A DNA stretch of 64,000 bases from Lunularia cruciata (lineage: Eukaryota; Streptophyta; Marchantiopsida; Lunulariales; Lunulariaceae). The stretch is from NCBI GenBank assembly GCA_948567375.1, contig OX419756.1:31262333-31326332 (forward strand). The letters are read 5' to 3'. The translations under genes were made by a program, and so were the position numbers. Positions 5,026-50,110 of this stretch are shown piece after piece (positions within the stretch are counted from its first letter, which is position 1; each line of letters starts with the position of its first letter). The notes under the pieces were generated by a model that searched no databases, was not told where the DNA came from, and worked only from the letters and a program-made list of their open reading frames with translations.

Positions 5026-6852
5026 TCTATGCCCGTATATGTGAAGTCCCTAATATCTAAATCTACTGCTGCCATAGTGTAGTTGGTGGACACACTTGAA
5101 CTCTTTTCCTTTGCCAATATTTATCGGATCCCTTTCTGTTTGTCGCTAACAAGTCTTAGGATATGGTACAGTCGACTTTCTCCTATTGCTAATGGTCGGT
5201 AGTAACTCAAAAGGTAATCATCAGTGAAGAATAGCGAAAAAAAAGTAAATGAAATGTTTATTTTCAAAAATAAGCTATCTCTGAAAAATTATGGTTCATT
5301 TAATTTTATTATTTTGTTAAACAGTTACTTGTATTGAAATGTTGTAATGGTTACTGAATGTAAATTTCTCTCTAAAACTGAAATTAATCTCACTTGGTTT
5401 TGATGTGATCATTATAACGTGATTATTTCCTCAACTCTTCTCAACCTCATCTCAACAATATATAATCCTACGATTAGAAACTGCTAAGCAACTCTTTTCC
5501 ATTCGAGTAGTAATAAGTAAGGTTATTGAGAATCTTTTTGGTATCATCTGAAGTAGATAATCATAATTTTAACTTTTCAAATTTTTTTAAATACAATAAT
5601 TTATCTCACTGGGTGCAAACTAGGCGTATTATTTAGGATTTTTATTTTCTTTCTCATCAATAAGAAAAATATTAATAATATTTATATATCCTCTAATTTT
5701 TTTGAATATACCTCAAGTGAATGACAATACTTCAAGTCACAGTTGAATTTTTTTCTTGATTAAAATGGTAACTATAAGATGACTATTAATACTTGTATAT
5801 TTTTTAATTTTATCCTTTACATTTCACTCTTTTAGGTATGTAGGATTACTAATTTTATTTTCAATATTATCTCAGGTGAAATAGTCATATCAGTAATTTG
5901 TAGTCAAAAAACTTTACTAAACTCAACTTTTGAGAAATAGATTATTAATGAGGACATTCTCTTTACCCTTCAATGAGTCTTGGAGGGTCAATAGTAATAA
6001 ACTTTCATAGACAGAATCACTCCCGTATATCAAACAGAACTTGCTTTCCTTGAGGATGATATTACTTTAACTACCATGGAAAGCATTCCACCACAATTTT
6101 GGCATCACGCATTTATAGTTCTAGATCGGCCATAGTCCAAATTGAAGTAAAAAGATAGCAAACCCAAGGAAAAGGAAATCGATAGTATCATTAAGAAAGG
6201 TACAAGAAAGTACTTGTGTGCTTGTATGGGCTCTTTCTGATAATTATGTAAATTTATGGTTTCATATATTATCAATTAACTCGAAGAAAACTCTCCAACA
6301 AAAAAATAATCTTTTAATGATTTACCTTTGTCCCCCACATGGATCCATACCATGGAGAACTGAGGTCTTTAACAATTAGATAAAATAATGTTATAAACTA
6401 ACTTTTAGAGATAGTCGACGCAATTCGGATATCTTCTGTAGGCACTCTAACGATGATATGAGGCCGGACCGTACAGGAGAACCACATGGAAGGTCCCTTG
6501 TCCAATCGCTAACATAGTTGCATTAGGTGGACCCACCTGCATTCATTCCCTTCTACTGCCAATGCTTGCCGGCTCCCTCCAACTGCGCTTATTGACACTG
6601 ACCCCTGACTGTTCACACATGCAGGTGGAACAGTTTAACTGACGTAATATATAGCTATTACTTCACTTACGAGAACCCAGATGAATATAAACCTATCGAG
6701 AGTACCAATTTCCCCTGATTCTGTGGGGAAATCCGGAAAGGATTTTGTCTGCATCCTCGTGCTCGTTCAGAGAGAATTTTGGTTCTGAAGGTGTGCGTTC
6801 TCTCGTAGTCTCTTTGATCTTTGGTCTTACCGAAGCGACCGCCTTACGGGAG

Positions 6853-9375: not shown

Positions 9376-10866
9376 GAATCTGGCACAGAATTGTCGACGT
9401 CCTTCTGAAGCGTTTTACCTACCTAGTAGGGGTGACTGTTATGGTTATGGTCTGTGATACCACAACCTGAAGGTCTATGTACATACGAGGAGTTCCACTT
9501 TTCATTTAGCCCCGGAGACCAACACATCAACATGTTTACTTCATAAATGAAATTGCTATAGAGCTATGTATCATACGAACTAGTAAAGCTCAAAGGACAC
9601 TGTTTCTCGAGAACCAGGATGCGAAGTCATCTCTCTTGTTTGTACCGTTAGTTGTTAGCTGATGCATGAGGCGTATCACTCTATATCTACACAGGTTACC
9701 CTCGTAAGAAGTCATCACACGAGTTGATGACTAGCTATTGGTTTGGCAGTACCGGAGCTGCACTATCAAACTCACCATCCTCCTCCTACCTCCATGCCCA
9801 TTTTGGGATCTATGACTAACCTTCCACAATGTAGATGCTTGTCACGATTTGAATGTCCATCTCAGATCTCATCACCTGGTATTTCTACCTATTGATACAA
9901 GCATCCAGTCGCTAGCAGATGGAAAAAGACGGGAGAGGACGAGAACCTGAATTAGTACTCTACTACCATTATCTGTATAGCCAGGGTTCCAGGAAAAAGT
10001 GGAAAAGGAAGAAATTTGCTTGGCACTGGAACACACTGAAACAGAGCGTATTGCACGTCTGTGAGTCAAGTATATGACGCTCATTTTGTTGATGCTGAAC
10101 AGAAGAGGCAGACTCCCAACGAACGAGATCTTGCGCACTAGATTATCCTTAACCAGAGTCCCTCTTTGAAAAGTACAGTAAACCGGACGTGTTGTGGTTG
10201 TCTGCCGGTTCATCCAGTTCAGGGTTTCCACATCAGCGTGTGACATCCAGCTGGATTGGAGCCCACGACAATGCAGGCGGTAACATGGTAGATTGGCGGG
10301 AAGGGTGACATGATCATTGGGCGTTTTAGAACACGCGCGAATACCCAAACATTGCACCGTTCAGAAACACTCTTCTATTATCGGGAGAATTTGAGCGCAG
10401 ACAAGACCATATTCAATCGAGAGCTTCTTTTCTGTCTTCAGTGCTCTACAGGATACTACTTTCTTGTGGCCGCACGTCGTCGCAGTTCCCTGGCTGCAGT
10501 TCTCCGAGTGATCTTACTTTCTTGCGGCGCTGCGTCTGTCGAAGGTCATGAGCTAGAAATTTTGAATTATTTGATCTGCCACGCTCATTGTGTTGGCCGC
10601 CTTACCAATTGCTTTCATGCGAGCTCCGAGACCAGGAGGTCAAATAAGTCACAAAGGTGGCTGGAGCGAGGTCGTCTGAGTATTCTCCAAAATATAAATG
10701 CAGTCTGTCGGACTCACTCTATAGCGGTGTAGTACAGATTGCAGATTAGCGTGACGGCCTCAACAATCTTGCTAGTAAGATCACGGGAAGTGAACCTGGC
10801 AAGCGGGTTACTAACTTTGACTAACGTTGACACACCTTGAGATTAAGCGCACGCTGGGCGTTATCA
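9376..10866. other. Intergenic region between dioxygenase and GT61 genes
   Basis: This contains the presumed 3' untranslated region of the dioxygenase and the promoter and leader of the GT61 gene. Overlapping open frames on both strands (around 9872-10732) have no recognisable domain and look like chance. A short imperfect direct repeat around 10451-10545 repeats CTTTCTTG followed by a GC-rich block twice. Confidence 0.4.
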
Positions 10867-12540
10867 ATGCTACCAGTTGAGATTTCATCAAATTTTAGGC
10901 CAGCGAAATGGGGCTCAAGATCCTGTCAATTTTTGGCGGTTTTTCTCGGGTTGGCAGCAATAACGCTGAGCACTTTCTACGACACGGTCATGCTTACGAG
11001 GAATGCAATCTATCAAGTTCCCATGGAGGACATTTCGATGTCTTCCATTCCTACTTCTGGTACTTCCCAAATTCTTGAAACCAATTCTCCTCTTTCGTCT
11101 TCTTGTAGTTGTGCCCAGTTCCCAAGTCGATCAAACCGAATCTCCCATCAGAATGCATCATTTCAGTCATTTCCCTATATCACGTTAGAACAGGCTTACT
11201 TTCAAAAGATGCGCACAACGGATGTTTCCCAGATTGTAGAGAAAATTCCCATGCAGGAAAGGGAAAATTTCAAGAGTCAATTCTTGCCAAACACCAATTT
11301 TATGAATTACCCTCTTTTGGCCATGGAGAAAGTTTGTATGGATCCCACCGGAGCACTCCTGCTCATTGGAACCAGTCAAGAGGAGATCGAGCCAAATATC
11401 ACTGGGAAAACAGCAATTTCTGAGCTTTATTACCTCTGGAGGGAGATATACAATTGCAGTGGAAACATCAGCTCAGATCACTGTGTAGGAGTGACCTACT
11501 CGGAAGCCCTCCCACTGGAGCATAGCTACGTTCCAGGCAACACGGCGCACTTCCTCCCATACACAAGCAATCCGATGCACAACTGGGCAGAGCGCACTTG
11601 GCCTTTCACAATGGCGTCCACGCCTCCAATTCAACACACTGTCCCATTTCCTATCAGTCACTACATCATCCACAGGTTCGGTAAATGGCTACTTGAAAGC
11701 CAGCATTCACCAGATCGGGCGCAGATGCTCTGGCAATTCAGAATGCTCATGGAGATATCTGGAGATTCCTCTCCAGACTATCTTACGGTGAAAAATCAGT
11801 CTAAACCAGTGTGTTTTGACCGCCTCTTGCTTCAGATGCATACCAGAGATCGGATAGACGAGACTCGAATTCCTGATCCGATCGCAGGAGCTGGAGTCAG
11901 GAAATATCGAGCGGCAATCTATGATTTTTTCAAATTTTCTGAACTTCCCCAGGTAAAACTGCCGCCAGAGAAACTCAGGGTCGTCTATTACGGCCGCAAT
12001 GATACGTCCAGAAGGAGAGTGATGAATTCCGAAGAAGTGATTAAATATCTACGTAACTTCACTAGACCGCCTTTGGAAGTATACTACTTGGACGAGATGT
12101 TGGCAAGCGGGAAGACGAATTACAGCTTCCCGGAAGTCGTCAGACTGATGTCGCAAACAGACATTTTCGTCGTAGCCCATGGGGCTAACACATGGTCTAC
12201 ATTTTTGCTTCCAGATGGAGCAGGAGTGGTCGAAATCATCGGCCCTTGCAATTGGAGCTCATACAACTACAGTGATCTGCGAACTGTACATACCTGGATG
12301 CATGTCAATGCGGTTGCTAGCAGGCTGAAACACGACACAAGCAACCCGTTTGAAGACATAGTTCCCAACCCCCGCCGAGGAAATACAACACTTTGCAAGA
12401 ACCCTTACACCGGCGTTCCAGATTACACCATAGATCTCGACAAGTTGGGAGATGTCATTCACTCTTTTGCCTACCCCGACCGACCTGGGGATCACTTGAC
12501 ACAGCATTGGTTGTATGATTGGGATTCTTCCCTGGTGTGA
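10867..12540 (+). CDS. GT61-family glycosyltransferase, single-pass Golgi type II protein
   Basis: An intronless frame of 557 codons starts at the first ATG. A hydrophobic stretch at about residues 21-37 follows a basic N-terminus, as in Golgi type II transferases, and is followed by a serine-rich stem. The catalytic region matches the GT61/EOGT-like fold (DUF563). VVYYGRNDTSRRRV at about residue 367 is the nucleotide-sugar region, and DIFVVAHGANTWSTFLLPDG leading to GVVEIIGP at about residue 432 is the family's hallmark C-terminal block. Plant members add xylose or arabinose to xylan or beta-xylose to N-glycans; others modify serine/threonine on secreted proteins. Which acceptor is used here cannot be told from sequence. 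Several N-x-S/T sites occur in the lumenal part. Upstream in-frame codons lack an ATG, which fixes the start. Confidence 0.85.
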   Translation: MLPVEISSNFRPAKWGSRSCQFLAVFLGLAAITLSTFYDTVMLTRNAIYQVPMEDISMSSIPTSGTSQILETNSPLSSSCSCAQFPSRSNRISHQNASFQSFPYITLEQAYFQKMRTTDVSQIVEKIPMQERENFKSQFLPNTNFMNYPLLAMEKVCMDPTGALLLIGTSQEEIEPNITGKTAISELYYLWREIYNCSGNISSDHCVGVTYSEALPLEHSYVPGNTAHFLPYTSNPMHNWAERTWPFTMASTPPIQHTVPFPISHYIIHRFGKWLLESQHSPDRAQMLWQFRMLMEISGDSSPDYLTVKNQSKPVCFDRLLLQMHTRDRIDETRIPDPIAGAGVRKYRAAIYDFFKFSELPQVKLPPEKLRVVYYGRNDTSRRRVMNSEEVIKYLRNFTRPPLEVYYLDEMLASGKTNYSFPEVVRLMSQTDIFVVAHGANTWSTFLLPDGAGVVEIIGPCNWSSYNYSDLRTVHTWMHVNAVASRLKHDTSNPFEDIVPNPRRGNTTLCKNPYTGVPDYTIDLDKLGDVIHSFAYPDRPGDHLTQHWLYDWDSSLV

Positions 12541-27700: not shown

Positions 27701-28667
27701 GAGAGATTGCTGGTGGGGACTCCCGTTGTGAGATGTAATTGAAAACTAAGGAGCAAGATCGTAAGTTAATAAGGACAGAACAAATGAAAATCGAGAACTG
27801 GAGCACGACTGGTCTTTTACATTCTATTCTCTTCACCGTTCTGAGATGGAAGCCTCGGTGTGTCGAGTCACATTTGCAACTATGTCATCTCACATCTAGT
27901 GAGTTGGTATTGGCATCGATCTTTGCAGCGGAATGTTCCAGCAAAGATACTGTTGCATCGACAATGCATCATTCAGACACATGAGCAAAGTTTTTGCCTC
28001 CAGGTCGTTTGAGCTCCGTATGAGGACAAGGTCCTGAATCTGACAGCTGTAGTTACAGCTGGTTTGGGCCTATCTAAGGTTACGCAGATATAAAACACTA
28101 AGTAGTGCATGAAAAGCTAGAATTGGATGTCTGAAGTATCAGCCTCAACTTCCCAGCATCCGAGTTATATTTGGAGAATTTGGTTGCGCGGGGGAGATGC
28201 TGGAGAGTGTGGAGACTGACGGGAGAGGAGAGGGAGAGACGCGAGATAATTTTGATAATTTCTGAGTGTTCTCTGGCATTTAGCAATAGAATGAATAGTC
28301 AATTTTCTACGTTTTCAATTTCGGTTCCATTGGTACTAGATTGAAGACTATGGAGAATGGAGTAGAAAGTTACAAAGATTTATAGCTTTTTTAGGGTTGA
28401 GAGTGATCATTATATATTTAGAGTAATGGATTGTAAATTTTTATTTCTAATCTCTTGGTTTTTATGATTAAATTTCATGAGAATTTAATTTGAAAATTTT
28501 GGAGATGAAAATTGAAAATTACGAGAGTTTATAGATTTTAGGGTTTGGAAAGATGGTTTTGTTATGTGAGTTGGGAGGTGAGGGGTTGTGGTTTTGCAGA
28601 TATGGGGAGATACGGGGAGATATGGAGAGGAGTATCATGTGTTACTATCATTATTCTTGTGCTAGCC
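24710..28667. other. Upstream of MLO; no recognised gene up to the non-LTR element
   Basis: The first part should hold the MLO promoter and leader. Open frames occur, the longest a plus-strand frame of 195 codons at 25018-25605, but none has a recognisable domain, and opposing frames overlap. A GC-rich quasi-palindrome at 26698-26816 is listed separately. From about 28,280 the sequence becomes AT-rich, apparently marking the start of the repeat-derived DNA around the non-LTR retrotransposon. Confidence 0.4.
26698..26816. repeat. Quasi-palindromic foldback of about 120 bases
   Basis: Outer arms CCTCGCGAG / CTCGCGAGG, a middle pair carrying the palindromic ATCGTC-ACA-GACGAT type sequence with ATTGG / CCAAT, and inner arms CCGCCT / AGGCGG fold around a short loop near 26,745. 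It looks like a small foldback or MITE-like insertion, but I found no convincing target duplication. Confidence 0.6.
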
Positions 28668-31600
28668 ATGGCTACACCTTCCGATGTGGGGTTGCCTAGA
28701 GCGGGTCGGGATACACCATGCCCAGTGTGTCATCGACGCTTTACTTCGCAAGTGGTAAAGACTTATGTGGGAAGGATGCACAAGGACTATGATTGTACCA
28801 CTTGGGATATTCACGTGAGACGAGCGACCACATCGACTGCAGTGACACTCGGGATTACGCACGCTTCTTCTATACCTTCGTTGATCGCTCCAGGGATACC
28901 GATCGAGTCGTGGGAGTGGTTAGCTTCTCAAGCGGGTTGCATTTTGGGGTTATTTGAGACTAGTTTTCCATGTCCACGTCTATTCCATAGGCTGCCCCGC
29001 ACACTCCATGATGAGGCAAGAGAGGCTTTTCACCTACCATTGGATCGTTTGGCACGTGATCCCTTGGAAGAGTTAGCGTGGTTCCTATTCCTCCTACTCC
29101 CTCGATGGTGTCTTCGTTATGCTAGAGGGGGACGCGTGGGGCATAGAGAGGTGGCGGCTAGATTTCGTCGATTCCGAGCGGGGGATTGGGCAGCGCTTCA
29201 GAAGGAGTCTGTTAGGGCTACACAATTTAGGAGACAAGCATCGCCACATGATACCATAGATTCCACTCGATTACGACAATGTAGGACATTGGATCAGGCG
29301 GGAGAATTTAGTAGAGCAGCACGAGCGATACACCCTTTGTCTATAGCGAGTCTTACTGATGAGACCATCTCTTCCCTACGCTCATTGCATCCTATAGCAA
29401 TAGAGGGACTACCACTAGAGGTCTTAGATTATCAGCCTGAGCAGCCTTTATGTCTTGATAGGTCGTTATTTGCACAAGCATTGTGCACTGCCCCTCGCCT
29501 TTCCTCAGGAGGCTTGTCAGGGATGGTTTATGAGCACCTTAGAGATTGCTTCCAGGCAGATGATCCTTCTAGTGGTTTTACCGAGTTGTTTCAGGTGGCT
29601 GCAACAGTAGCGAGAGGAGACATTCTTATGTTTGTTAGTCGGGTCTTAGGTGCTAGTCAACTTCTCGCGATTGAGAAGGACACGGGAGGCATTAGACCAA
29701 TTGCTATTGGAGAGATCTTTTTGCGTTTGGTCAGCCGTACCATTGTCTTTCAGCATCGTTCTCACTTTCGACAACACCTTAGTCCACATCAGTTTGGAGT
29801 AGCTACACCTGGAGGATGTGAGGCTATATCTCTAGGCATTAGAGCACTCCTAGATATCCATCAGGAGTGGGTCGTCCTACAGGTGGATGTTGAGAACGCT
29901 TTTAATAGCGTCTCACGTGCATCCATCTTTAGAGAGCTTAGAGAGGCTGGTGGATCCTTGGCGAGTCTCATTCCTTTTGTGCGGTCTTTTTATGGCTCTC
30001 CTGCTTCCCTTTACTACTAGCATGGTGGTTCACAAGAGGGAGTCACCGTCTTGGAGTCAGCTGTTGGTACACGACATGGAGATCCTTTGGGGGGGCTCTT
30101 ATTTGCCATGGCTCACTTTAGAGCTCTCCTATCTACTACTTTGGCCATGCTAGGTTGTGTATTTCCCTCCTTGGCAGATGATACACACATCGTAGGCCCT
30201 GTAGATCAGATTAGGCAGGCCTTTGACTACTTGACTATCGAGCTACATCTAGTAGGCTTGAGAGTCAAGGTGTCAAAGTGTTAGGCATGGTCCCCTTTAG
30301 GTATCCCTCCCCACCTTGAGCTTCCAGAGGGGTGTATCACATCCACAGATAGACTTCGTGTTCTTGGAGTGCCAGTAGGATTGGAGGATTTCGTCACACG
30401 CTTCTTGGACGCTGCCCTTGCAAAGGATGTTCTCCATGTAGATGGCCTTCCATTACTAGGAGATCCACAGGTGGCATTTAGTATACTCTCTTCCAGTATT
30501 GCTCATCGACCATCCTACCTCATCCGTACAGTTCCCCCCTCACCGTCCTTCCTATCACGTCTGAGAGCATTTGATAGGGAGTCTTTGGTGATATTATTGG
30601 ACCAAGGACTTTTGAGTGTGTGACAAGGGATTTGGCACGTAGACAGACGGCTCTACCAATCTCATGTGGTGGGGTTGGCTTGCTTTCTATGGAGGAGATG
30701 GAACCTATAGCATTTTTGGGTAGTTGGGCTCTCTCGGCACCCCTAATTGCCTCTCGTCTTGTGGTTGCTGATAGGCCGGTTTTGGAGACTTATGTGACAG
30801 AGGTGGAGGGAGGACCCTTTTCTCTCTAGGTGTTATTGCGGCAAACGAGAGATAGTCTATCCCCAAGAGCACAAGAGGGTTTTCCATCGTTTGCTTCACT
30901 ATTGTCAGATTGGACTAGAGGTCTATAGTCTTCCTTGACGGAGCGATAGTGTGAGCATACGCTACATTCTCTCTTAGTTGACTCGTCCATTCCTCAGGCT
31001 ACTAGAGCACGTCTACGCTCTTGCTCCGGCAAGGGTGCAGGCTCGTGGATCCTAGCTCGACCATGCATTAGGGCTTTCCGACTTGCACCGACTACTTTCT
31101 CTACAGCGATGAGGTTTAGCCTAGGTTTGGTCCACCCATCTGCATCTTCACTACTCACTTGTGAGTGTGGTACCACACTAGATGCAGCGGCGGTCCACAT
31201 GACATGGTGTCCTTTTGGAGGACAGAGGATAGCTACACATGATGCCATTAGAGACATAGTGTTTGCTATGGCACGAGAGAGTGGATACTTAGCTTGGAGG
31301 GAGCGTTCGTATTTGTTGCAAACGACACGTGTCAATGCAGACTTATACTTGGTCCGAGATGATCAGGTGACAGTAGCGGATGTCGTGGTCATGGACCCTA
31401 TGCGAGATATAGTTTCAGAGGGAGTGATTACCCATCCCCCTGGATGGGCGGCAAGTGCAGTAGCAGGTCGCAAGGTCTCCAAGTATAGGGGCATGCAGCG
31501 AGGTCACTTCTTTGTTCCTCTAGCCTTGGAGTTATATGGAGCGATGGACACAACATTTGACACATTTGTCAGGGAGTGCACGAAAGCTTATCATGTTAGG

Positions 31601-37552: not shown

Positions 37553-37970
37553 GCAAAATTGAGTTTACCATCAATCTTGACTAACTCAATCATATTATCA
37601 GACATCCTGTCTGAGAAAATGATACTTCATGGCGACGTGTTTCACTCTACTATCCATTACCCGATTCATAGTTAGATGTAAAGCACTCTCGTTATCATAG
37701 TGTACATTCATAATGTCATGAGTCAATCCCATCTTTGTGATAAGCTTGTCCAACTAGATAGCTTCCTTCATTGCTTATGTTGTTGCTACATACTAAGCTT
37801 CTTCTATAGTAGACTGAGCTACGCACTTCTGCAATATAGATCTCCAACTTATGCATCCTCCTCCAAGTGTAAACACATACCCAATCTTAGATTTCCTCCC
37901 ATCCAAATCTTGTCCATATTTAACATATAGATAGCCAATAAGTGATTTGGCATTGTAAGATTTAGCATCA
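37553..37970 (-). pseudogene. Copia RNase H, distal part (left of the gypsy insertion)
   Basis: On the minus strand this reads SYNAKSLIGY, GQDLDGRKSKIGYVFTLGGG and CISWRSILQKCVAQSTIEEA, then continues across three stop codons to MKEAI, DKLITKMGL and HYDNESALHL. These are the standard copia RNase H blocks. The reading frame is the exact continuation of the piece at 47,705-48,036 once the gypsy element and one copy of the target duplication are removed. Confidence 0.85.
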
Positions 37971-37974
37971 AATA

Positions 37975-38412
37975 TGTCATGCCATTTGTAGTGCCGCATC
38001 TAGATGCTCGGACACTGGAGCTCCAGTGATAGTAGTCAGAGTTATTTCAGCCATTTCTTAGAGACAGTTAGATTTTGTGTTTGGAGTACTGACTTCACGA
38101 TGGGGCCCACCGTCACTTTGCACCATTTGCACCGTCGAGTGTGCCATCAGCGGGACCATTAGGGTTTTAGAGCTAGCTTGACTCCAGGGGGTATAGTTTT
38201 GAAGTGAGCTCCAGAGAGCTCACTTCTTTGATGTTGAGCCTTCGAGTTCTTGGCTATGGTGGACAGAGGCTGGCGAGCGTCACCTGAATTCTCTATGTTT
38301 GAGTGGGTATGGCTTGACTGTAATTAGTGCCCAGTTGTTGGCAGTTTATAGAGTGATAGATCACGTACTGATCTGAGTTGAGTTGAGTTGAGAGTGGTAA
38401 GCAATCTGATTA
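37975..38412 (+). repeat. Gypsy LTR, distal part only (left end)
   Basis: Aligns with 47152-47598 from TCATGCCATTTGTAGTGCCGC to GTAAGCAATCTGATTA, with many point differences. It lacks the about 105-base proximal block that begins the full LTR at 47055. The following bases TACATCAGAG resemble the initiator-Met PBS core ATCAGAG. Confidence 0.8.
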
Positions 38413-40259
38413 CATCAGAGAAGTGAAGTCAAGGGGACATTAGGTGCATGAACTTTGAGTGTTGGTGGTATCTCCAAGCTTGGTGGATCATTGGTAGCTT
38501 GGATCAAGTCAGTGTTTCCCTAGTGTGCAAAAGCTCATTTAATTGATGCAGATTTGGCAGTTAGGCGGATAGTGTGCGGAAGCACTGGCTAAATTTTGAG
38601 CAAAGAAGGAGCAAATTTCAAACAATGGTTGTGATTTTGAGCTCAAGAGGTGAAGGCAGGACCAATTTGCTGCGAGTTGGGCTCAGAAAGTCAAATTGAA
38701 GATTTTGGCCAAATTTGGAGGAGTTTTGCTAGTTTGGAGGACTTTCACAGATTTGGAGAAGTTTTGCCAATTTTGGAGGAGGTTCGAAGTGGCAACAAGA
38801 AAGGCCTCATTTGGCTGAATTTTGGCATTTCGAGGCTTTGAGGTATGGGGCTGTGGGCTATGAGAGGCTATGAAGGCCTAGAAGAGTCAGCAAGCCAGCT
38901 TGCTGGCATGAGACTAGCTAGTTTAGAGTAGATCTTGGTCATTGGTTGGCAAATTTGCCTTTCTTGCTAGATTGTGTGCAACACAGTTTGACCCCTATAT
39001 CTCTTGTTCCTAGACTGGTGCCCTAGCCAATTGGTCCACCCTCACTTGTTGTCATAGTGACTATGCCACTGTTATCTATACACATGTAGCTTTGGCTAGG
39101 AGAGGCAGTTTGATCCCATTCTTGGTGATCTTGGTAGCTTAGGACTTAGATACAAACTTCTCTTATGTCAAATGCCAAATGGTGGCAGAGTCAGTCCCGT
39201 GTTGTGTTATGAGATGGAGGGTTTTGTTTAGATTTCTTGTGATTGGATCCCCTCCATTCTATGCTTCCTATTTGTGCACCACATTTGTGTGAGGTGCATT
39301 GACTTTTGAGCATTGGTGCTTTGGTGTGCTCTCGGTGGTGAAGTTGGAGTGATGACCAGTCAGACTACCTTTGTTTCTCTCCGATGAGGCAGGAAGTGAT
39401 GACCTGCAGACTGTGAGAGTACGTGCTATGATGGCAGGTTACAGGTTGCCCTTTCTCCTAGTGTAGTTATCTCGGTTAGAGTTACATTAGTGGGTGGTGC
39501 TTAGTTGGTATTGGCACTTGGTGGTGTTGGCATTTGGTGGGGCACTTGCGGTTGTGACTTGCGGTTGCAGTTGGTGGTTTGGGTTTGCTGTTGTGGTTAC
39601 TTTGTCATGACGGAGTTCTTTGGAGATTCCAAAGGAGTTAGCCTTGCAGTACGTAGTGGGTTTACTTGAAGTGGTGCTCGGTATCAGCCTGTATCTCAGG
39701 TCCCAATGAGGGAGGAGATTGACTCTAAGTTGGAGTTTGACACATGAGTTGATTCAGTTGAGATTGCACTTGGTGTGTCCATTGTTGTGGGACATGGACA
39801 AGATTTATGGGGCCTCCAAAGGCCCTAGGTGTTACTCTGGTATAGTGGGTACCATTGAGTTGGATGACTTCATCCAGGAGTTTGATAGTTGATGTGATCT
39901 ATAGCAGATGCGGAACCCGACTTTGTTTACACCCTTCATGGCATGGAAGGGGTTGTTTCAGCACTTAGAGGGTCCACCGATGGATGAAAACCATGAGTTC
40001 AAGAGTGCTCATTTGGAGGAGATTGAGTTATGGAGACAGTATTGGTCTCCATACTATGTCTCCATCACTTTAGGCGGTCAGGAGTAGATCGGCTGTACCT
40101 ACGAGTTCTAGCTTGAGTAGTGTGGGTGGAGCTAGTGGAGGTGCACTAGTTGGAGATAGTGCTACTACGAGTGGAGGTATCGCTGCATGAGGTGGTGTGG
40201 TACCGGGGTTTAACCCCATGGTAGAGTTCTTCCTATGTTTGAGGTAGAACTACCAAGGA
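38413..40259 (+). pseudogene. Gypsy leader and decayed gag N-terminal region
   Basis: This lies between the PBS and the recognisable gag. It contains a degenerate run of about 20-30-base units around TTTGGAGGAGTTTTGC (38,700-38,790) and a GT-rich tract near 39,490-39,600. No frame stays open for long, and the gag N-terminus, if present, is too mutated to delimit. Confidence 0.5.
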
Positions 40260-41300
40260 GTGCAGACTGACAAGTTGAGGAGCTTGCAGGAGTTCTTGTG
40301 GAAGGTTGGAGAGAGCCTACGTGAGGCATACACTTGCATGAGGCGGCTGATCAGTTTCACTCAGGGAGTTACTGAGGCCCAGGCAGTCCAATTTTGGTAT
40401 GGGATATTGGACAGGGAGTTGCAACATAGAGTTCATGATGCTACGTTGTTACAGGCTACTTTGCCTACTTTGGCAATGGTCTTTGGTTTGGCTGAGCGTA
40501 TTGAGCTCAACATGGTGGAGGAGAGGGTGGTGACATCTGGATTCGGTAGGGAGACCTCATCCACAGCTGTGACTTCTTCTAGAGTGCAGCAGAGTGCACC
40601 ACGCCTAGTTGGTTTTTGAGGATAGGGTGGACCGCCCAGATCCTATAGAGCAAGTGGAGGGCCTAGTGGAGTTAGACCCTTACTCTCATTTTGGGGTCAG
40701 CAGCAACTAGTGAGTGGTGGTGTTGCTTGTTGGACTTGTAGTGGACCTCACCATCGGAGAGAGTGTACTCAGGGTAGTGAGCCTGATACCTTGGGTGCAT
40801 CATAACCAGCACAGAGGCAGTGTGAGCATTGCCACAGATTTGGTCACACTAGTGACCGGTGTTTTGACCTACACCCGGAGTTACGGAGTGGTAGGGCTGC
40901 TATGGCTTGTAGTAGAGGAGCTCCAGTTCATGGAGGACGAGGTGGTAGAGGTGGTGGTAGAGGATCTACACCTAGTAGGGGTGCAGTTTCTGCCCTTACT
41001 TCTGACACAACTATGGCTACTCGGATTGAGCAGTTGGAGTAGAGATTGGCTAGTATGGCTATTGCTCAAAGGAGATCAGATTTGGGTGCTGAGGCTTCCA
41101 CCTCATATGCTGGTGATAAAGATGCTTTGGAATTCATGTGCAGAGCAGCACAGGTGGATGCAGATGTAGTAGTGACTAGGAGTGCAATACGTGCTCCAGA
41201 GCCTAGAGGAGCATCAGTGGAGTTGGACCCACATAGAGGAGAGGTTGGAAGACAGGTTAGACTTCCCCAGTCTTTCACGCTATCTGAGGCATTGTAGACA
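40260..41300 (+). pseudogene. Gypsy gag with two zinc knuckles
   Basis: The retrotransposon gag core reads LQEFLWKVGESLREAY, EAQAVQFWYGILDRELQHRV and LAMVFGLAERIELNM. Two CCHC knuckles follow: CWTCSGPHHRREC (from 40728) and CEHCHRFGHTSDRC (about 40827). These bind the element's RNA during particle assembly. All lie in the same frame as the downstream protease and methyltransferase, interrupted by TGA at 40618 and further TAG/TAA codons. A Gly/Arg-rich stretch separates the second knuckle from a tail containing MATRIEQLE. Confidence 0.75.
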
Positions 41301-42480
41301 ACATCCATGGTTCCTAGACGTCCTAGTGTAGTTGTGGTAGGTGGTGATGGAGTACATGATGGACTACCTACTACTCAGCCACCTGCTACTACACAGACTG
41401 AGTCTAGCATGATGTTGGGGGCGGCTCAACTGATTATGCGGCATTCTTTGTTTTTGGCTAGTGATATGTTTACATTGGGAGTTGATCCAACTCCAATATT
41501 CCGGTTGGCTACCACGTTGTGTGAGAGTAGGGATGGTGCAGTTCCTACTACTAGAGTAGAGGTGGTTGGTAGTGGAGCTGACTTGGTTGAGGAGCATGGG
41601 ATCCGTTCAGCGACCAGTGGCTTATGGCAGGCAGCAACGGCTAGACTGAAGGAGTTGCCAGCTAGACCGGCCTTTGAGAGAGCACGGTTCACACCTGGTG
41701 TTGTCCTATTGGATAACCAGAGGGGGATTTTTCATTTGGTGTGACTTTCAAGGAAGGTCTATACACCACAGAGAGTCTTGTTAGACTCTGGTGTGCAGCC
41801 CCTTATGTTGGGGAAGGCTGCAGTTGTTGGTCTGGAGTTACGGAAGACCGATGTGGAGAAGTGTCCATTTCAGATCCAAACATCTCTAAGTGGTTGTTCA
41901 ACACAATACATCACACGTGGGGAGCTTGTTGTCCAGGTTCAGCCTAGTCATCCGACTGATAGCTTGATGGTGAGAGCTCAGGCTATTGCGACGATAGCTG
42001 AGTCATATGATGTGCTAGTTGGGGGAGCAGTGTTATACCTCATGGATTTCAGCATCAACTATTGGGAGGAGACAACCTCTTATAGACCTGGTTGGCAGTC
42101 TGGTGAGGGACGGGTATGTCGCCTACTAGTACGCTTCAGTAGTGGCAGTCTTGGCTCACTACAGTCCGGGACCATGGCAGCATCAGTTTTAGCTTTCAAT
42201 GGTGTAGTTACTTGGCCTGGTGACTTGTTGGAGGGGAACGCCCATGCAGAGGATACTCCAATACCAGAGGAGATCACTTGGCTTTGGAGTACGAGTGGAA
42301 TTGTTCCATCCACCTTGGATGTTCCATTGTGGAGTTCAGAGGAGGCATTGCAGCAACATGCTGATCAGTTGGTGCAACAGGCTTGGAGTGGAGCCTTCTT
42401 ACCATCACGAGATGAGTGTGAGGATGAGCCTCCAGAGGCAATTGCTTTGACACCTCTGGATACCACACTCATTGCTTGGC
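41301..42480 (+). pseudogene. Gypsy aspartic protease region
   Basis: RVLLDSGVQPLMLGKAAVVG (41,773 on) carries the catalytic D-S-G of retroviral-type proteases. It is followed by YDVLVGGAVLYLMDFSINYW, the usual C-terminal protease block. A linker with FNGVVTWPGDLLEGN and SEEALQQHADQLVQQAW leads straight into the methyltransferase in the same frame. A TGA at 41742 lies just upstream of the active site. Confidence 0.7.
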
Positions 42481-43460
42481 AGTATCCAATAGAGGGGATA
42501 TGCCTATTGGAGTTGTTTGGTGGGATCAACACCGGACTAGTTGCGGTGTTACAGGCAGGTATACGAGTATAGATGTACTTGTATGTAAAGAGAGATGAGA
42601 CTGCTAGGCAAGTCTCTCTACATTATGTAGCACACTTGGCCTATTGGTATCCAGAGTTTTTACTAATGTCAGTAGTCAAAGGTTACCAGAAGGCCCTACC
42701 AAGAGACATTTCCTTATTAGGGGCGCATGACCTAGAGAGACATGGGCCTATTTACTTGGTGATTTTTGGATGGCTATGTTAGGGACATACACATGCTGGT
42801 AGAGGATTGGGTCTTCACGATCCTCATTCTGGTGTGTTTTGGGAGATATTACGGATACTATGACATCTCCAAGTTCATAAGTCTATTTCTCCAGCTTACC
42901 TTTTGGAGAGCGTTCCTTTGATGGGTGATTCTCGCACCAAAGTGGTGGCGAGTACACATCAGGTCCATTCTTGGATGGGACCTGCTGTATTGTTAGATGC
43001 AGCCAGAGTGGGATCACGGGCTCATCGTCTTTGTCTTTGGTGGACGAACCTCTTACCCAGAGAGGTTCTACAACGCGCTTATGATGGGATTCAGCGACTT
43101 GACTACATCCTTGTTGATGATATCTTGGATGTTGGGCGTCAGTCTCAAACAATGGTAGTGGCTGATAGGTCACCTATGGCAGTGGTGAACCTAGTTGGAC
43201 AGCCTAGAGCCGCATTTCCCACACTCATGAGTTTCCCAGGCTCTCAAGCTTCTCAAGAGGGAGGACCTGGACTTGTTTGGAACTCACAATTATAGCAGTT
43301 GGTGGAGCCCAACACTGATGAGAGAGAGCGGCCGATGGGTTTTTGCACCGGTATTACCACTATTCCAACAATGTCAGAGGCATCCAGGTGTTAGGTGTTA
43401 GGTCAGGCTATGGACCTAAACTGTTTGACCTGGATTGTGAGCCTTGGCTTGGCAAAGTAG
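42481..43460 (+). pseudogene. DNMT3-like cytosine-5 DNA methyltransferase domain inside a Ty3/gypsy polyprotein
   Basis: Motif I (SAM binding) is LLELFGGINTGL at 42504-42540. Motif II follows as YLYVKRDE. The motif IV region reads GPIYLVIFGWLC-stop-GHTHAG, where families have a PCQ or PCN catalytic loop. Motif VI reads YLLESVPLMGD (family ENV). Motif VIII is DAARVGSRAHRLCLWWTNL, matching the DNMT3 pattern AHR-x-R-x-FW-x-NL. The end (ERERPMGF, then LGQAMDLNCLTWIV) fits motifs IX-X. Such enzymes place 5-methylcytosine on DNA. Spacing between motifs VI and VIII resembles DNMT3 more than CMT or MET1. The domain is in frame with gag-protease, with TAG at 42570, 42780, 43293 and about 43395 and TGA at 42861. 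The catalytic cysteine codon is kept, but the flanking Pro and Gln are lost. It is therefore a real capture, now inactive here. Confidence 0.8.
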
Positions 43461-44706
43461 CGTAGGATGTGCTTGATAGGTATCACCACTCGGACACTTG
43501 TGAACCCTATGCCTATCAAGACGATTCAGGCACATGTTGGGGGCGATGGACCGAGTGGATATGGTATTCTTGGGACACATCCAGTAGCTACTAGGGAGAT
43601 TGGTCTACTTGGAGTCCATCCAGGTGAGCGTGGGCTCTTGGATTACACCCTTGGTCCACATGGGATGCAGCTAGAGGATGTGTGGAGCTTGCAGCAAGAG
43701 TGGAGGGAGTTTTTCACACAGAGGTTGGGACCTCTAGCGGTAGGGAGCATGACACTATTGCTCCCAAGGGCCCAGTGTAGCAGTCAATCAGTACGTCTTC
43801 CACTCATATTACAGTCACAGAGGATACTTGGGAGCCAGATCTTGGACCCAAGCTTATTGGAGAGGAAAGACGGAGGGTTTGGAGGTTCTTGAGGAGTTAC
43901 ACAAGCTGTTTTGCCTTTAGTATGAAGGATTTGGGTGCTCTGAAGTGACTTGGTATACGGATTGAGCTGACTAGCAACACACTAGTTTTCCGATGTCCTT
44001 ATTGATATAGTGATATGGAGAGGACATTGATTCAGAGCAGGAGTAGTGACCTTTTTGAGGCTGGTTTGGTGGAGATTTCACATGGAGAGTATGCATCAGC
44101 AACAGTGATGCCAGCCAAGAAGGATATGCATGGCAACAATACAGATAAGCGGATGTGTAGAGATTACCATCCCATCAACCGACAGACCAGGGCTGATTGG
44201 TATGCCATGCCTACATCGAAGGAGATTTTTGATGCAATTGGGCATGCAAAGGTCTTCAGTACGGATCTTTGAGCGGGATATCATCAATTGCTGATCAAGG
44301 AGGAGGATAAGTCCAAGACATCATTTTGGGCTATTGATCCTCACGGAAAGGATGTGTTATATCAATGGAAGTTCTTACCATTTGGATTGAAGAACGCTCC
44401 TGTTGAGTTCCAGAGGGTCATGGATAGGATCCTAGCTGGATTGGATTTTTCTTGGTGCTATATTGATGACATTTTGGTTTAAAGCACTACTGTGGAGGAG
44501 CATGAGAGACAATTGTTGGAGGTGTTTGAGAGGTTGAGATCTCATGGACTCAAATTACATCCTTGTGTAGGTTCTTCCACGAGAAGGTTGAGTATTTGGG
44601 TCACACTATCTACCCCGGAGGACTTGGTGTCCAGCAGACCAAGGTGGAGGCTATTGCACGTATTCCTTGGCCTACGGATGTGAGCAGAGTGTGAGCACTC
44701 CTTGGG
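43461..44706 (+). pseudogene. Gypsy reverse transcriptase
   Basis: After a spacer, a second frame takes over at about 43,770: GEERRRVWRFLRSYTSCFAF, then RIELTSNTLVF and YSDMERTLIQSRSSDLFEAG. The polymerase follows with VMPAKKDMHGN, FSTDL-stop-AGYHQL (first catalytic Asp region), WKFLPFGLKNAPVEFQRVMD and the YIDD box (CYIDDILV). Stops at about 44272 and 44480 and a frameshift before 44,707 disable it. Confidence 0.88.
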
Positions 44707-46738
44707 TTGGTGAACTTCTATCGCCATTATGTTAGAGGATTTAGTGCCATTGCCAAGGCCTTGACGAAGCTGACCAAGCTTACACCAGAGTGGTGTTGGG
44801 GAGATGAGCAAGAGAGAGCTTTTGTAGAGCTCAAGGAGAGGTTGACATCTGCTCCTATTTTGAGGAGGCCGATCAGGGGACGACCATTTCAGGTTCACAC
44901 TGATTGGAGTATGTTGGGACTTGGAGCGGTGCTCACCTTACATGATGATGAGGGGAAGGAGTTTGTGGTGGCCTGTGCTAGTCGCTCCAACAATTCAGCA
45001 GAGGCAAAGTATAGTTCATATGAGGGAGAGTGCTTGGCAACAGTTTGGGCAATAGCACATTTCCAATGTTACCTATTTGGTAACCTCTTCACTCTCATCA
45101 CTGATCATCAGCCGCTGAAGTGGTTGATGGAGTCCGACAAGCTTTCGGGGAAGCTTGCACAATGGGCTCTGATTTTACAGGAGTATGATTTTATGGTTGT
45201 TCACAGACCTGGAGTGGTGAACTTTGATGCAGATGAGTTGAGTAGAAACCCATGTCCTAGCCAGCAAGATCAGACCGGAGCACATTGGCGTGGTGAGACA
45301 GATGAGGAGATGGTGCCAAGTTGGCATGCATCGGCCTTTCTACGTATATTTGCAGAGGCTTTGGTGGTATCTCTCTCAGTGCATACAGGAGGAGTTATTG
45401 AGGTCACAGATCCAGAGAGTAAAGATATTGGTACAATTCAGCAAGACATTCATGATGATGTCTTGATGATGGACTATCTTTGCACTGGTGTTGTGGGTGG
45501 CCCAGTTGGGGCCAAGGAGAGAGATCGTGTTTTTCAGCAAGCCAGACGGTTCAAATTGGAGTGTAGACACCTTTTGTGTGTATGGGAGGATGGTAGAGTG
45601 CGAGTAGTACCACTTCCATCTCAGAGACCACATTTGGTCCGTCATGCTCATGAGGAGCTAGGACATTTTGGAGTAAAGTGTATGTATAGCTTACTCCAAA
45701 GTCATTATTGGTGGCACGGTTTGGAGACCAAGGTACAACAATTTGTTGCCAGATGTGTGGTTTGTGACCAAGTTAGAGCATCATTCAATGCTCCTACGCC
45801 ACAGTTATACCCATTACCTAACATGGGATTGGGTTACCATTGGAGTTTGGACTTTGCCGGACCTTTACCACTGACTGTGAGACATCATCGGTATGTTTTG
45901 GTGATGGTGGAACACTTCTCCAAGTGGATTAAGTTGGTGGCACTTCCTAACAAGTCTAGTGAAAGGACAGCTTACTCGTTCCTGGATTGAGTTCTTAGTC
46001 ATTTTGGTGCACCAACTGAGGTTTTGACTGATCAGGGTACAGAGTTCTTGGTGGAGTTTCAGGTCTTGTAAGACAAGGCTTTGATTGATCATCGTACTAC
46101 ATCCTGAGATCACCCTGAGGCAGATGGCTTAGCAGAGAGTGGTTCAGACGGTGAAGAGAGGATTGCAAAAGTATGGTTTGCAGAGAGGCCACTTGGGAGA
46201 TTGGGATCTCTAATTACCTTGGTTGGCCATGGGCTATCGGTTCAGCCAGCAAGCCTCCTTAGCATCCTTCTCTCCATACTTTCTACTCTATGGATGAGAT
46301 CCAAATTTACCTACAACCATTTGTTGAGATGCTATTGTAGTTTTGGACTTGGATGACCCCGATGTATGGATGAGCGCATGTTCTAAGCGGACAGAGATCT
46401 TTCGGAGAGTGATGCCGATGGCCTTTGAGAACTTGGCAATTTCTCAGCATAGAGATACTTTACGCTATGCTACCATTCAAGGAGGAGGTTATAGACCCTC
46501 GATCCGTTGATTTCATCCAGGCAACTATGTATATCTACAACAGACAGCACCGACAACACTTGATGTTTCTATAGGCCGCACTATCTTGAGAGTGCGTGAG
46601 GTTTTGCCATTTGGAGTCCTTGTGTTAGAAGGACGTGATGGTGTTGTTTGGAAGGATCATGTGCGCAATTGTGCGCCATGCCACCTTCCAAACATTGATG
46701 GTTCTATGGACCCAAGCTTGGCACTTGTACGTGCAAGC
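44707..46738 (+). pseudogene. Gypsy RNase H and integrase
   Basis: RNase H: FQVHTDWSMLGLGAVLT, FVVACASRSNNSAE, YEGECLATVWAIAHF and TDHQPLKWLMESDKLSG. Integrase: zinc-binding HEELGHFGVKCMYSLLQSHY with CVVCDQ, then catalytic-core segments SLDFAGPLP, VLVMVEHFSKWIKLVAL, TDQGTEFL, and PEADGLAE-RVVQTVK for the D, D and E positions. Stops at 45990 and at several later points. The C-terminal domain reads PGNYVYLQQTAPTTLDVS and GRTILRVREVLPFGVLVLEG, then KDHVRNCAPCHLPN, leading in frame into the PHD finger. Confidence 0.88.
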
Positions 46739-46885
46739 TTCAGGTGTATGTTATGTGGCTCTTCTGGTGGAGCTGCTATTATGTTAGTGTGTGATAGCTG
46801 TTTGAGAGGATGGCATATGGCATGTATGACTCCTCCCCTCACGGTGGTTCCTCAGGGACAATGGTTATGTCCTAGATGTACTTGA
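46739..46885 (+). pseudogene. PHD finger at the C-terminus of the gypsy integrase
   Basis: CMLC, then VCDSC, GWHMAC and CPRC supply the complete Cys4-His-Cys3 ligand set, with the invariant Trp before the last Cys pair (GQWLCPRC). The frame is continuous with the integrase C-terminal domain from about 46,520 and ends at a TGA. PHD fingers read histone H3 tails, often the methylation state of lysine 4. Chromoviruses carry a chromodomain in this position, so the finger likely served integration targeting or works with the methyltransferase. Ligands are intact although much of the polyprotein is broken. Confidence 0.85.
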
Positions 46886-47054
46886 CCTATAGCTACTTCA
46901 CTCTTTATATGGTATAGATTGCCGATAGGCAACTAATGATGGGGCTCCATAGCACCCGGCCTCCTGATCTTTGCCCATTAGAGGGTATACCATATACTTA
47001 GAGTAGATGGCTATCTGGAGTAAGAGGGATCTAACCGCCAGCTAGGGGAGCAAT
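46886..47054 (+). other. Gypsy 3' untranslated region and polypurine tract
   Basis: Non-coding sequence after the PHD finger, ending with AGGGGAGCAAT (47044-47054) directly before the LTR start TGTGCACTTTAG. A purine run next to TG is the expected plus-strand priming site. Confidence 0.6.
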
Positions 47055-47598
47055 TGTGCACTTTAGAGTCTATGTGTGAGTTGTGCTTCTATATTGTATG
47101 ATATTGACAGTGATGTATGTTGTGTAGCGATGTATATACACACGATAGCTATCATGCCATTTGTAGTGCCGCATCTAGATGCTCGGACATTGGAGTTCTA
47201 GTGATAGAAGTTAGAGTTATTTCACCCGTTTCTCAGAGACTACTTTCCAATGGTTAGATTTTGTGTTTGGAGTACTGACTTCACGGTGGGGCCCACCGTC
47301 ACTTTGCACCATTTGCACTGTCGAGTGTGCCATCAGCGGGACCATTAGGGTTTTAGAGCTAGCTCAAGTCCAAGGGGTATAGTTTCGAAGTGAGCTCCAG
47401 AGAGCTCAATTCTTTGATGTTGAGCTTTCGAGTTCTTGGCTATGGTGGATAGAGGCCGGCAAGCATCACCTGGATTCTCTCTACTTGAGTGGGTGTGGCT
47501 TGACTGTAATCAGTGCCAAGTTGTTGGCTGTTCATAGAGTGGCAGATCAAGTACTGATCTAAGTTGAGTTGAGTTGAGAGTGGTAAGCAATCTGATTA
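47055..47598 (+). repeat. Full gypsy LTR
   Basis: About 544 bases, from TGTGCACTTTAGAG to CAATCTGATTA. The proximal 100 bases recur at 47600-47704, and the distal part recurs at 37975-38412. It is preceded by a polypurine tract. Its two parts therefore give the order proximal-distal within a genuine LTR. Confidence 0.7.
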
Positions 47599-47599
47599 T

Positions 47600-47704
47600 T
47601 GTGGCACTTTAGAGTCTATGTATGACTTATGTGTGAGTTGTGCTTCTATAGTATATGATGTTGACAACAATGTATGTTGTGTAGTGATGTATATACGCTT
47701 GACA
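47600..47704 (+). repeat. Gypsy LTR, proximal part only (right end)
   Basis: TGTGGCACTTTAGAG onward repeats the start of the full LTR (47055) with small differences, then stops at GCTTGACA, where copia sequence and the AAATA duplication begin. It directly abuts the end of the full LTR, as in an LTR-LTR junction. Confidence 0.75.
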
Positions 47705-48713
47705 AATAAAAAGCTAAAATCCAATGTACCCTTGAGATATATGAGGATCCAATTCATAGCTTCCCAATGTATCCTCCTTGGATTTGACATGTATCTGCTA
47801 GTCTTGCCCATAGCTAGAGCAATGTCAGGCCTAGTGCAAATCATCAAAAACATGAGACTTCCCACTGCCTTGTCATAGGGGATCTTGGACATCAAACCTT
47901 TCTCCACGACATCTATCGGACAAAGAGCTGATGAAAGCTTGAAGTGAGGAGCTAATGGAGTACTCACAAACTTACAATTCTCCATGTTAAATCTTGCAAG
48001 TGCCTTTCTAGCATACTTCCCTTGGGTGAACCACAACTTTCCATCCTCTCAATTTTGTTGGATCTCTATCCCCAAAATCTTCCTTGTTGTACCAAGATCT
48101 TTCATTTTAAATTTGGAACTCAAGAGAGCTTTGAGCTTATCAACATCATATCTATCCCTAGCTGCAATGAGCTGCTATCCACATAGAGTACCAGAATAAT
48201 GAAGCCAAAGACTTCATTACTCACCTTTTTCATGTATACACAAGGATAAAACACACTATGTTTAAATCTTTGTGACCTCATGAAATCATTGAACCATTTG
48301 TTCCATTGTCTAAGAGCTTGCTTTAATCCATATAAGGATTTCAACAACCTAGAAACCATATCCTCTTGGATTTTCTTCACAAAACCCAAAGGTTGTCTCA
48401 TGAAGATCACTACATCTAAATTGCCATAGAGGAAAGCAATGACAACATCCATATCTAAGATAAGACCAAAGTAAGTCACAAGTACACACAATAAGTGAAT
48501 AGTGGCATACTTAGCAACAAGAGAGTAGACCTCATTGTAATCCACACCATTTTCTTGTGTGAAGCCCTTGGCCACCAACCTGGCCTTGTAGATCTTCTTT
48601 TCTCCACCGATAGGGCTATCTTTCAGTTTGTAAACCCACAAACTGTCCACCAGTTGTTGATGTTTTGGAAGCTTGACTAACTCCCAAGTCTTGTTGTCAA
48701 CAAGTGATTGCAT
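47705..48713 (-). pseudogene. Copia reverse transcriptase and proximal RNase H
   Basis: Minus-strand frames show ELVKLPKHQQLVDSLWVYKL, YKARLVAKGFTQENGVDYNE, LLKSLYGLKQALRQWNKWF and LVLYVDSSSLQ (the family has YVDD; a Ser replaces the second Asp here). The connection and RNase H start follow: KYARKALARFNMENCK, YDKAVGSLMFLMICTRPDIA and HWEAMNWILIYLKGTLDFSF. The RNase H breaks at FLF where the gypsy element begins. The changed YVDD box and frame breaks mark it as inactive. Confidence 0.85.
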
Positions 48714-50110
48714 CTCTCTCTACATTGCAACATTCCACTCAAGCTTGTCCATCAAAGCTAGAGCCTCATTGTATGAAGAAGGTTCCCTTTCTTCCAAGAT
48801 CAAAGCCATACCATCATCATCAAGAGAGATATCCTCATCTCCTAATTGTGTTGAATCAACCCATTTGTCAAATGTTCAAGTTCACAAATAGAACATCCAG
48901 ACATCCTCCTTGTTGATCACTGAACTTGATTTTCTTGTGTTGAATGGTGTCAAGGTTCACTAGTCCACTCATGCCCTTGTAATTCCTCAATTTGGGGAAC
49001 TTGCTCCTCTATGGGAGCACCTCCTTGTGACTCATCATGAAAACCATCATAATTGATCTCCTCCTCAACAATATATATAGGAGATTTTCCCTTGTCAATA
49101 TGAGGAGCCAAAGCTTTCTCCCCCTTGGTTGATGATCTAGACTCATTGACTAAAACATCTCTACTGACAATCAATTTATAGGTGAGGAGATCCCACAACC
49201 TATAGCCCTTCACACCACTCTGGTAGCCAAGAAAAATACATTTCTTGGGAGTAAGATCTAGCTTGGATCTATTGTCTTTGGGTATGAGATGATATGCATT
49301 ACGTTAAAGACTACTAAATGATTGTAATTTGCAAGCCCATCCATGCCTCATCTCAAATGGTGTCATACAATGAATTGCACTAGAAGGAGAAAGATTTACT
49401 AAGTAAGTTGTAGTGTTGATAGCTTTAGCCCAAAACACATGTGATAACCTGATTGGCTCAACATACTCCTCATCTACTCCTATAATGTTTGATTGAGCCT
49501 CTTGGCAACACCATTCTATTGTGGAGTATGTACAATAATGAAATAGCAAGTTATCCTCTCTTGTTGACAATACACCTCAAATTCTCCAAAAGTGTATTCC
49601 ATGCCGTTATATGATCATAGAAATCTCAGTTTCTTACCAATTTGAGTCTCAACTTGGGTTTTCCACTTCTTGAAAGTGACAAAGACCTCAAAATTTTAAT
49701 GTAGGAAATGAATCCATACAAACCTTGAATAATCATCGATGAAAGATACATAGTATCGCTTTCCAAAATGTGAGGGAGTTAGGGGATGGGCCACACAAAT
49801 CATTATGTATATAGTTGAATATTTCTTTGGAACTATGAGTTCCACTGCCAAAAGCAATTTGATGTTGCTTCTCTGATACACAATGCTCACAAAATTTTAA
49901 ACTACTCGACTGTAGTGTAGAAATAATGCCTTTTCTTGCAAAGAATAGACATGCTCTTCTCACTAATGTGACCTAGCCTTGAATGCCACAAGTAGTCAAT
50001 CATATCATGAGATCTAGTAGCATGAGCCTCTCCACAAATAGTGTTGCTCTTTAGCACATAAATATTCTTGTGCCTATTACACTTCAAGATGACTTTTCTC
50101 TTAGCCATGA
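48714..50110 (-). pseudogene. Copia integrase region
   Basis: The GAG-pre-integrase part reads LWHSRLGHISEKSM. The integrase zinc and core parts read CEHCVSEKQHQIAF, YIHNDLCGPS, YYVSFIDDYSRFVWIHF and later SHVFWAKAINTTTYLVNLSPS. KGYRLWDLLTYKLIVSRDVL marks the end of the domain before the reverse transcriptase. Several frame changes and stops break it. Confidence 0.8.

Follow-up and report, generated by a model that had tools for sequence, protein, structure and literature searches.

Retrotransposons that carry C5-cytosine methyltransferases have been described in Klebsormidium nitens and in dinoflagellates (de Mendoza et al. 2018, PMC5890265), and the part of PMC12344493 used here repeats these streptophyte and dinoflagellate reports. 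We describe a liverwort counterpart: a decayed Ty3/gypsy retrotransposon with a DNMT3-like methyltransferase domain, located in 64,000 nucleotides of Lunularia cruciata (the window; assembly GCA_948567375.1, contig OX419756.1, positions 31,262,333 to 31,326,332, forward strand). A first-pass annotation of the window, made from the sequence alone, had pointed to algal precedents, correctly according to PMC5890265. Our analysis adds to it the bryophyte relatives, a UAG-CAR-YYA codon, a PHD finger, the A-coding-B-A-B termini and a separate host DNMT3 gene.

As described in the parts of PMC5890265 on which we draw, the K. nitens element KnitGypsy-Dnmt3 shares with the liverwort family its Gypsy domains, a divergent DNMT3-like coding domain, signs of purifying selection and a DIRS-like repeat order, A-coding-B-A-B. 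Its methyltransferase is reported in the Pol open reading frame (ORF), whereas that of the liverwort family lies in the Gag-protease ORF, before a UAG codon. This comparison was made with the published description rather than with the sequence; the terms PHD, readthrough, Marchantia and Sphagnum do not occur in the main text of that paper. The dinoflagellate SymbioDIRS-Dnmt3 and SymbioLINE-Dnmt are also retrotransposons with a constrained C5 methyltransferase, and SymbioDIRS enzymes methylate CG in yeast (PMC5890265). They are, however, tyrosine-recombinase DIRS elements or long interspersed nuclear elements, in contrast to the rve-type integrase and 4-bp duplications of the liverwort family. 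According to a passage of a 2019 article (PMC6338049), land plants such as tracheophytes lack transposons that encode DNA methylases. We found no earlier bryophyte or liverwort report in the literature, including the consulted parts of PMC6453930, PMC12477816 and PMC5784723; most subscription journals and all preprints lay outside this search, which makes it weak evidence. The element is abundant in the liverwort genome and has relatives in Sphagnum and in Marchantia polymorpha, where genetics is routine. The Marchantia relatives make it directly testable why an element carries its host's own kind of silencing enzyme.

A DNMT3-like domain between protease and reverse transcriptase

The methyltransferase segment of the window copy was located by tblastn with an open-frame copy of the element and lies between the protease region and the reverse transcriptase (RT), in the frame of the protease (Table 1). 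The first-pass annotation had placed a C5 methyltransferase segment here, at 42,481–43,460 and in frame with gag and protease. Its position and its frame relative to the protease are borne out; the readable frame opens at 42483 rather than 42481, and part of the gag N-terminus is now found in a different frame. Motifs I, VI, VIII and IX–X are legible in this frame and motif IV is interrupted by a stop, as the annotation had read them from I to X with a mutated IV; its motif X fits the DNMT3A alignment. At the protein level, the window domain is 85% identical to that of another copy. The window copy is a dead, degraded member of a large Ty3/gypsy family, and its methyltransferase is a decayed module.

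Profile and fold evidence for the window domain was obtained on an open-frame copy, whose domain matched PF00145 at 4e-8 (33.5 bits; cut-off 22); over the whole first frame, ORF1, the profile scored 30–31 bits. DNMT3A and DNMT3B headed the sequence, profile and fold comparisons among solved structures, and matches in BFVD (best 8.8e-17) were weaker than those to DNMT3 in the PDB. The motif order I-IV-VI-VIII-X is unrearranged, unlike that of DRM. Eight of ten aligned relatives matched PF00145 at 1e-3, and the catalytic cysteine of motif IV, ENx of motif VI and RxR of motif VIII were invariant in all ten. Profile and structure searches thus returned C5 methyltransferases and, with the sequence searches, support the annotation's proposal of a DNMT3-type enzyme inside a Ty3/gypsy element. 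A chance resemblance of motifs is ruled out by the PF00145 and fold matches of the open-frame copy, and DNA matches elsewhere in the genome likewise show that the segment is not accidental. The evidence supports a DNMT3-like methyltransferase encoded by the Ty3/gypsy family itself, with predicted activity.

The methyltransferase is a family trait

A search of the same genome (566 Mb, 74 contigs) with the domain DNA gave 6,599 first-look candidates, with matches of full or nearly full length at 92–93% identity in at least 39 other places. Eight other copies were picked for long open frames, and seven of them were fetched with flanks. Because this first query consisted of the domain itself, further copies were sampled independently of it: 40 were taken through a site 3' of the domain, out of the first 100 listed places, and all of them are on contig C1. 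The methyltransferase region is kept in 37 of these, 36 of which have at least one stop within the domain; two of the other three end just downstream of the region and one is scrambled. The methyltransferase is a family trait, and the retrotransposon that bears it is present in this genome in well over a thousand copies. In a scrambled derivative, L070 (C1:15859950-15862400), pieces of the leader, the UAG region, the 3' part and A occur in both orientations.

In the copies, ORF1 (up to 1,428 codons from stop to stop) encodes gag, two zinc knuckles recognized by eye, protease and methyltransferase; the Pfam match of gag to PF03732 is below its cut-off. ORF2 (1,037 codons in two copies) follows in the same frame after one TAG and encodes RT, RNase H, an integrase with H2C2 and rve domains (Pfam) and a C-terminal PHD finger that matches PF00628 and resembles the fingers of CHD4, KDM5 and UHRF1 in PDB comparison. 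The RT-RNase H-integrase order, the rve integrase, short target duplications and TG...CA ends are features of Ty3/gypsy elements (Metaviridae), and all are present. Two complete flanking long terminal repeats, also a mark of the group, are absent, the order being A-coding-B-A-B instead. A DIRS identity was rejected on the rve and H2C2 domains of ORF2, which take the place of a tyrosine recombinase.

The UAG that separates the two frames is conserved. With this codon left open, the site pattern occurs at 1,719 places genome-wide and at none in the reversed control; with TAG fixed, it occurs at 1,647. Among 22 copies not chosen by the TAG site, including the window copy, 20 cover the codon: 19 have TAG and one has GAG. 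The next six bases match CAR-YYA in 20 of the 20 copies covering them. The first methionine of ORF2 is codon 48, and by eye the residues ahead of it resemble those in Marchantia P0008 and Sphagnum P0026, which would be expected of translated sequence. We infer readthrough of the UAG at a low rate. Readthrough signals of the tobacco mosaic virus type use UAG-CAR-YYA, likewise as UAG CAG CCA/TCA/CTA; the liverwort site differs in sitting within a retrotransposon, between methyltransferase and RT, and in being predicted only.

Relatives and phylogeny

Searching with the domain region returned 53 proteins, of which 14 are named Marchantia polymorpha (60–74%) and one Sphagnum fallax. The best 120 of 245 matches of a profile search include Calypogeia fissa, Riccia sorocarpa, Marchantia paleacea, Sphagnum species and Chrzof1, which we take to be Chromochloris zofingiensis; many of these are short records from which retrotransposon membership was not read. 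Three arrangements occur. Type I, found in bryophytes and some metagenomes, has protease followed by methyltransferase, with RT outside or after. In type II (23 of the 53 homologs, with RT or RNase H in view), the methyltransferase follows RNase H and precedes integrase. Type III (P0052, P0055) reads methyltransferase-RT-RNase H-integrase. The metagenomic type II elements P0027 and P0049 share with the liverwort family the methyltransferase clade and a PHD finger after integrase, and differ from it in having the domain between RNase H and integrase. A PHD finger follows integrase in all 19 type II records that extend past it, and none is seen in the two type III records. P0027 and P0049 continue for more than 300 residues beyond the PHD finger, for which Pfam gave nothing at E values of 1 or below, and a PDB sequence search with this extension of P0049 gave nothing significant. 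A virus source was considered and rejected: in one scan of IMG/VR, which compared the domain and not its surroundings, 140 relatives came up, and the 80 retained have best segments of 23–50% identity over parts of the domain, none being close.

From 295 proteins, 56 rows were chosen for a tree: 10 DNMT3 of plant hosts, 31 domains of element type, some of them classed so on similarity alone, and 15 further rows. All 31 domains of element type form one clade (support 100/100) on a stem of 1.9 changes per site, within which type I is recovered at 100/99 and type II at 95/60. Host plant DNMT3 form a separate clade (100/100), which the element clade joins together with an ADD-bearing eukaryotic row at 72/90, subject to a long-branch warning; because of the long stem, the donor of the methyltransferase is left open. 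The same genome has a host DNMT3-like gene, L001, closest to MpDNMT3b (61%) and placed in the host clade beside the DNMT3b of Marchantia and Riccia (100/99), a position that puts this genome within or close to the liverworts. MpDNMT3a/b and L001 belong to the same enzyme family as the element enzymes and share their unrearranged motif order, L001 also having PCQ in motif IV, but fall in a clade apart from them. By eye, two further stretches, L002 and L003, resemble DRM and CMT.

For 25 elements, RT and DNMT trees were built separately, and type I is recovered in each. The RT tree recovers all three types, and in the DNMT tree neither type II nor type III is a single group, the two type III rows being long. 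On these trees, which were made without Ty3 outgroups lacking the domain, the simplest reading would be a single old capture, after which the methyltransferase changed its place in the polyprotein. Sphagnum P0091 groups with Marchantia P0003 and P0004 to the exclusion of Calypogeia P0064 and Lunularia P0001, against species relationships, which old subfamilies or horizontal transfer could explain.

Age, decay and constraint

Identity between the two A repeats is 91.8% (402/438) in the window copy, against 97.6–99.3% in five others and 89.9% for L013. Relative to copy L016, the window copy shows C-to-T or G-to-A changes at 31 of 136 CG, 41 of 239 CHG and 25 of 786 CHH positions. This concentration at CG and CHG is the mark expected from methylation in plant contexts.

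For seven copies with an open methyltransferase, the mean ratio of nonsynonymous to synonymous substitution (dN/dS) is 0.46 for the domain and 0.65 for the ORF1 tail (21 pairs each), and 0.36 for part of RT (15 pairs; L010 excluded for a frame change), in pairs of close copies that are noisy and in some cases exceed 1. We also compared variant frequencies over 47 copies with expectations matched for base and context. Singleton variants are near neutral (domain 0.95, tail 0.93, RT 1.05), whereas variants present in at least five copies are reduced in the domain (0.59) and RT (0.60) and not in the tail (0.93). Recurrent CG and CHG change blurs this shared class, in which nonsense changes are about as many as expected, so that the variant data support constraint on the methyltransferase domain only moderately; the invariant catalytic residues in distant relatives are the stronger sign of it.

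Proposed role and alternatives

The first-pass annotation had suggested that the enzyme might label the element's copies or its insertion targets, or offset host defence. The best explanation as a whole, which we put a little short of an even chance, is that the methyltransferase acts on the element's own DNA before integration. Low-rate readthrough of the UAG would yield the enzyme in amounts like those of Gag, to be packaged in the particle, and RT and integrase as a minority fusion. Within the particle, it would methylate cytosines de novo in the element's new double-stranded DNA, which would then enter the nucleus resembling host DNA, the PHD finger helping to position the element in chromatin. 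The host might afterwards keep or extend CG and CHG methylation, and the copy would decay by C-to-T change, as the window copy did. A wider proposal, which we regard as doubtful when taken in full, is that a single ancient green-lineage Ty3 clade captured a DNMT3-like enzyme once and shifted it to different positions in the polyprotein, either next to protease or between RNase H and integrase; in bryophytes it would lie upstream of the readthrough stop, as a particle component at structural level that methylates element DNA before integration, paired with a histone-reader domain on integrase. If true, this would be a transposon born methylated.

Several observations weigh against self-methylation in the particle. 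The window copy cannot function, and KnitGypsy-Dnmt3, the nearest described relative, was inactive in yeast, a result that its authors call inconclusive (PMC5890265). Motif IV has Glu-Cys instead of Pro-Cys in 4 of the 10 aligned relatives. The domain follows RNase H in 23 of the 53 homologs, so Gag-level dosage is not general, and 3' of the UAG we found no stable RNA structure beyond that of shuffled sequences (z 1.1). CG observed/expected in five young copies is 0.45–0.47, between the values of the window flanks (0.66 and 0.12), so that a special loss of CG in them is not shown. The number of nonsense changes is close to expectation, even among the shared variants, a class blurred by recurrent CG/CHG change.

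The enzyme might instead act on host chromatin: delivered with integrase, whose PHD finger would read histone H3, it would methylate the insertion site or host genes and so hide copies or favour tolerated sites. The finger, of chromatin-reader type and similar to those of CHD4, KDM5 and UHRF1, ends Pol here and in every one of the 19 homologs that carry the methyltransferase ahead of integrase and continue beyond integrase. The methyltransferase, however, occupies the first open frame and would be joined to integrase and PHD finger only in the readthrough product, and the two type III records show no finger; we consider action on host chromatin unlikely. Quite improbable, in our judgement, is an enzyme that works against silencing by the host, for instance through competition with host DRM, CMT or DNMT3 or by misdirecting them, with or without methylating DNA. 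The host does have its own DNMT3-like gene and the stretches like DRM and CMT, and methylation pressure, judged from the CG/CHG transitions of the window copy, is strong, but a pure decoy would not need the catalytic residues that are conserved.

We give similarly little credence to a self-limiting device in which pre-methylated copies would be born silent, do less harm to the host and accumulate. The high copy number and the stops in 36 of 37 sampled domains would fit, yet decayed Ty3 copies are known to be abundant in plants that lack a methyltransferase in their elements. Finally, the domain could have come from a single copying of a host DNMT3 pseudogene into one element, since the genome does hold L001 as a possible source. 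This carries next to no probability: at least 39 other places match, the domain is present in nearly all site-chosen copies and in relatives from other species, and element-type and host DNMT3 rows form separate, fully supported clades. The genome-wide search for copies that the first-pass annotation had proposed thus speaks for a family module and against a one-off insertion.

Termini and insertion site

Table 1. Features of the retrotransposon in the window (window coordinates)
Feature	Position	Strand	Basis
Target-site duplication, left copy (AATA, 4 bp)	37971..37974	.	read directly
Whole Ty3/gypsy element, TGTC...GACA ends	37975..47704	+	ends common to other copies; empty-site reconstruction
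Terminal repeat A, first copy (A1; no B before it)	37975..38412	+	
gag remnant, two frames	39794..40691	+	tblastn with open-frame copy
gag zinc knuckles, two	40710..40904	+	by eye
Aspartic protease region	41700..42284	+	LLDSG by eye
DNMT3-like C5-cytosine methyltransferase domain	~42465-43469	+	6 in-frame stops, no indel relative to copy L010
ORF1 tail after methyltransferase, one frame change	43473..43777	+	tblastn with open-frame copy
Conserved UAG, then CAG-TCA (UAG-CAR-YYA context)	43778..43780	+	window sequence and copies
Reverse transcriptase, one frame change	43961..44673	+	tblastn with open-frame copy; Pfam on copies
RNase H	44779..45273	+	tblastn with open-frame copy; Pfam on copies
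Integrase, one frame change; H2C2 and rve domains in copies	45544..46471	+	
PHD finger at Pol end	46712..46882	+	PF00628 on copies; PDB
Purine-rich tract (AGGGGGG in younger copies), immediately 5' of B1	47042..47052	+	
Terminal repeat B, first copy (B1)	47053..47147	+	
Terminal repeat A, second copy (A2), 91.8% identical to first	47150..47598	+	
Terminal repeat B, second copy, reaching element end	47598..47704	+	
Target-site duplication, right copy (AATA)	47705..47708	.	

The order A-coding-B-A-B is found in the window copy and in seven further copies with both ends read, A1 of L010 being cut to 72 bp. Eight additional 3' ends were read: seven show the full B-A-B, and one stretch began inside A. 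In the 5'-truncated L014 (C2:62726000-62735500), the 3' end halts at B directly after the purine tract, without a second A. A perfect 4-bp duplication surrounds seven of eight copies, including that of the window; L013 is without one (by eye). A1 is followed by what may be a primer site, with a match of only seven bases to the initiator methionine primer site, which may be chance.

Cyclic permutation of B.A-coding-B.A gives the integrated order, and our guess is that a two-repeat circle opened at GACA-GC-TGTC may yield it. Against this, random opening should also give A-B-A-coding-B, but of 17 3' ends only that of the 5'-truncated L014 stops at B and lacks the second A.

When the window flanks are joined with one AATA, they give a continuous minus-strand reading of 173 codons that resembles copia RT-RNase H by eye, and the next ORF outward matches RVT_2 at 1e-40. 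A Ty1/copia pol gene on the minus strand (37800-37974 and 47705-48719) is thus split by the element. Elsewhere in the window, open frames at 6745-7431, 10837-12540 and 28545-30020 correspond to a dioxygenase N-terminal domain, a glycosyltransferase 61 and another reverse transcriptase, respectively.
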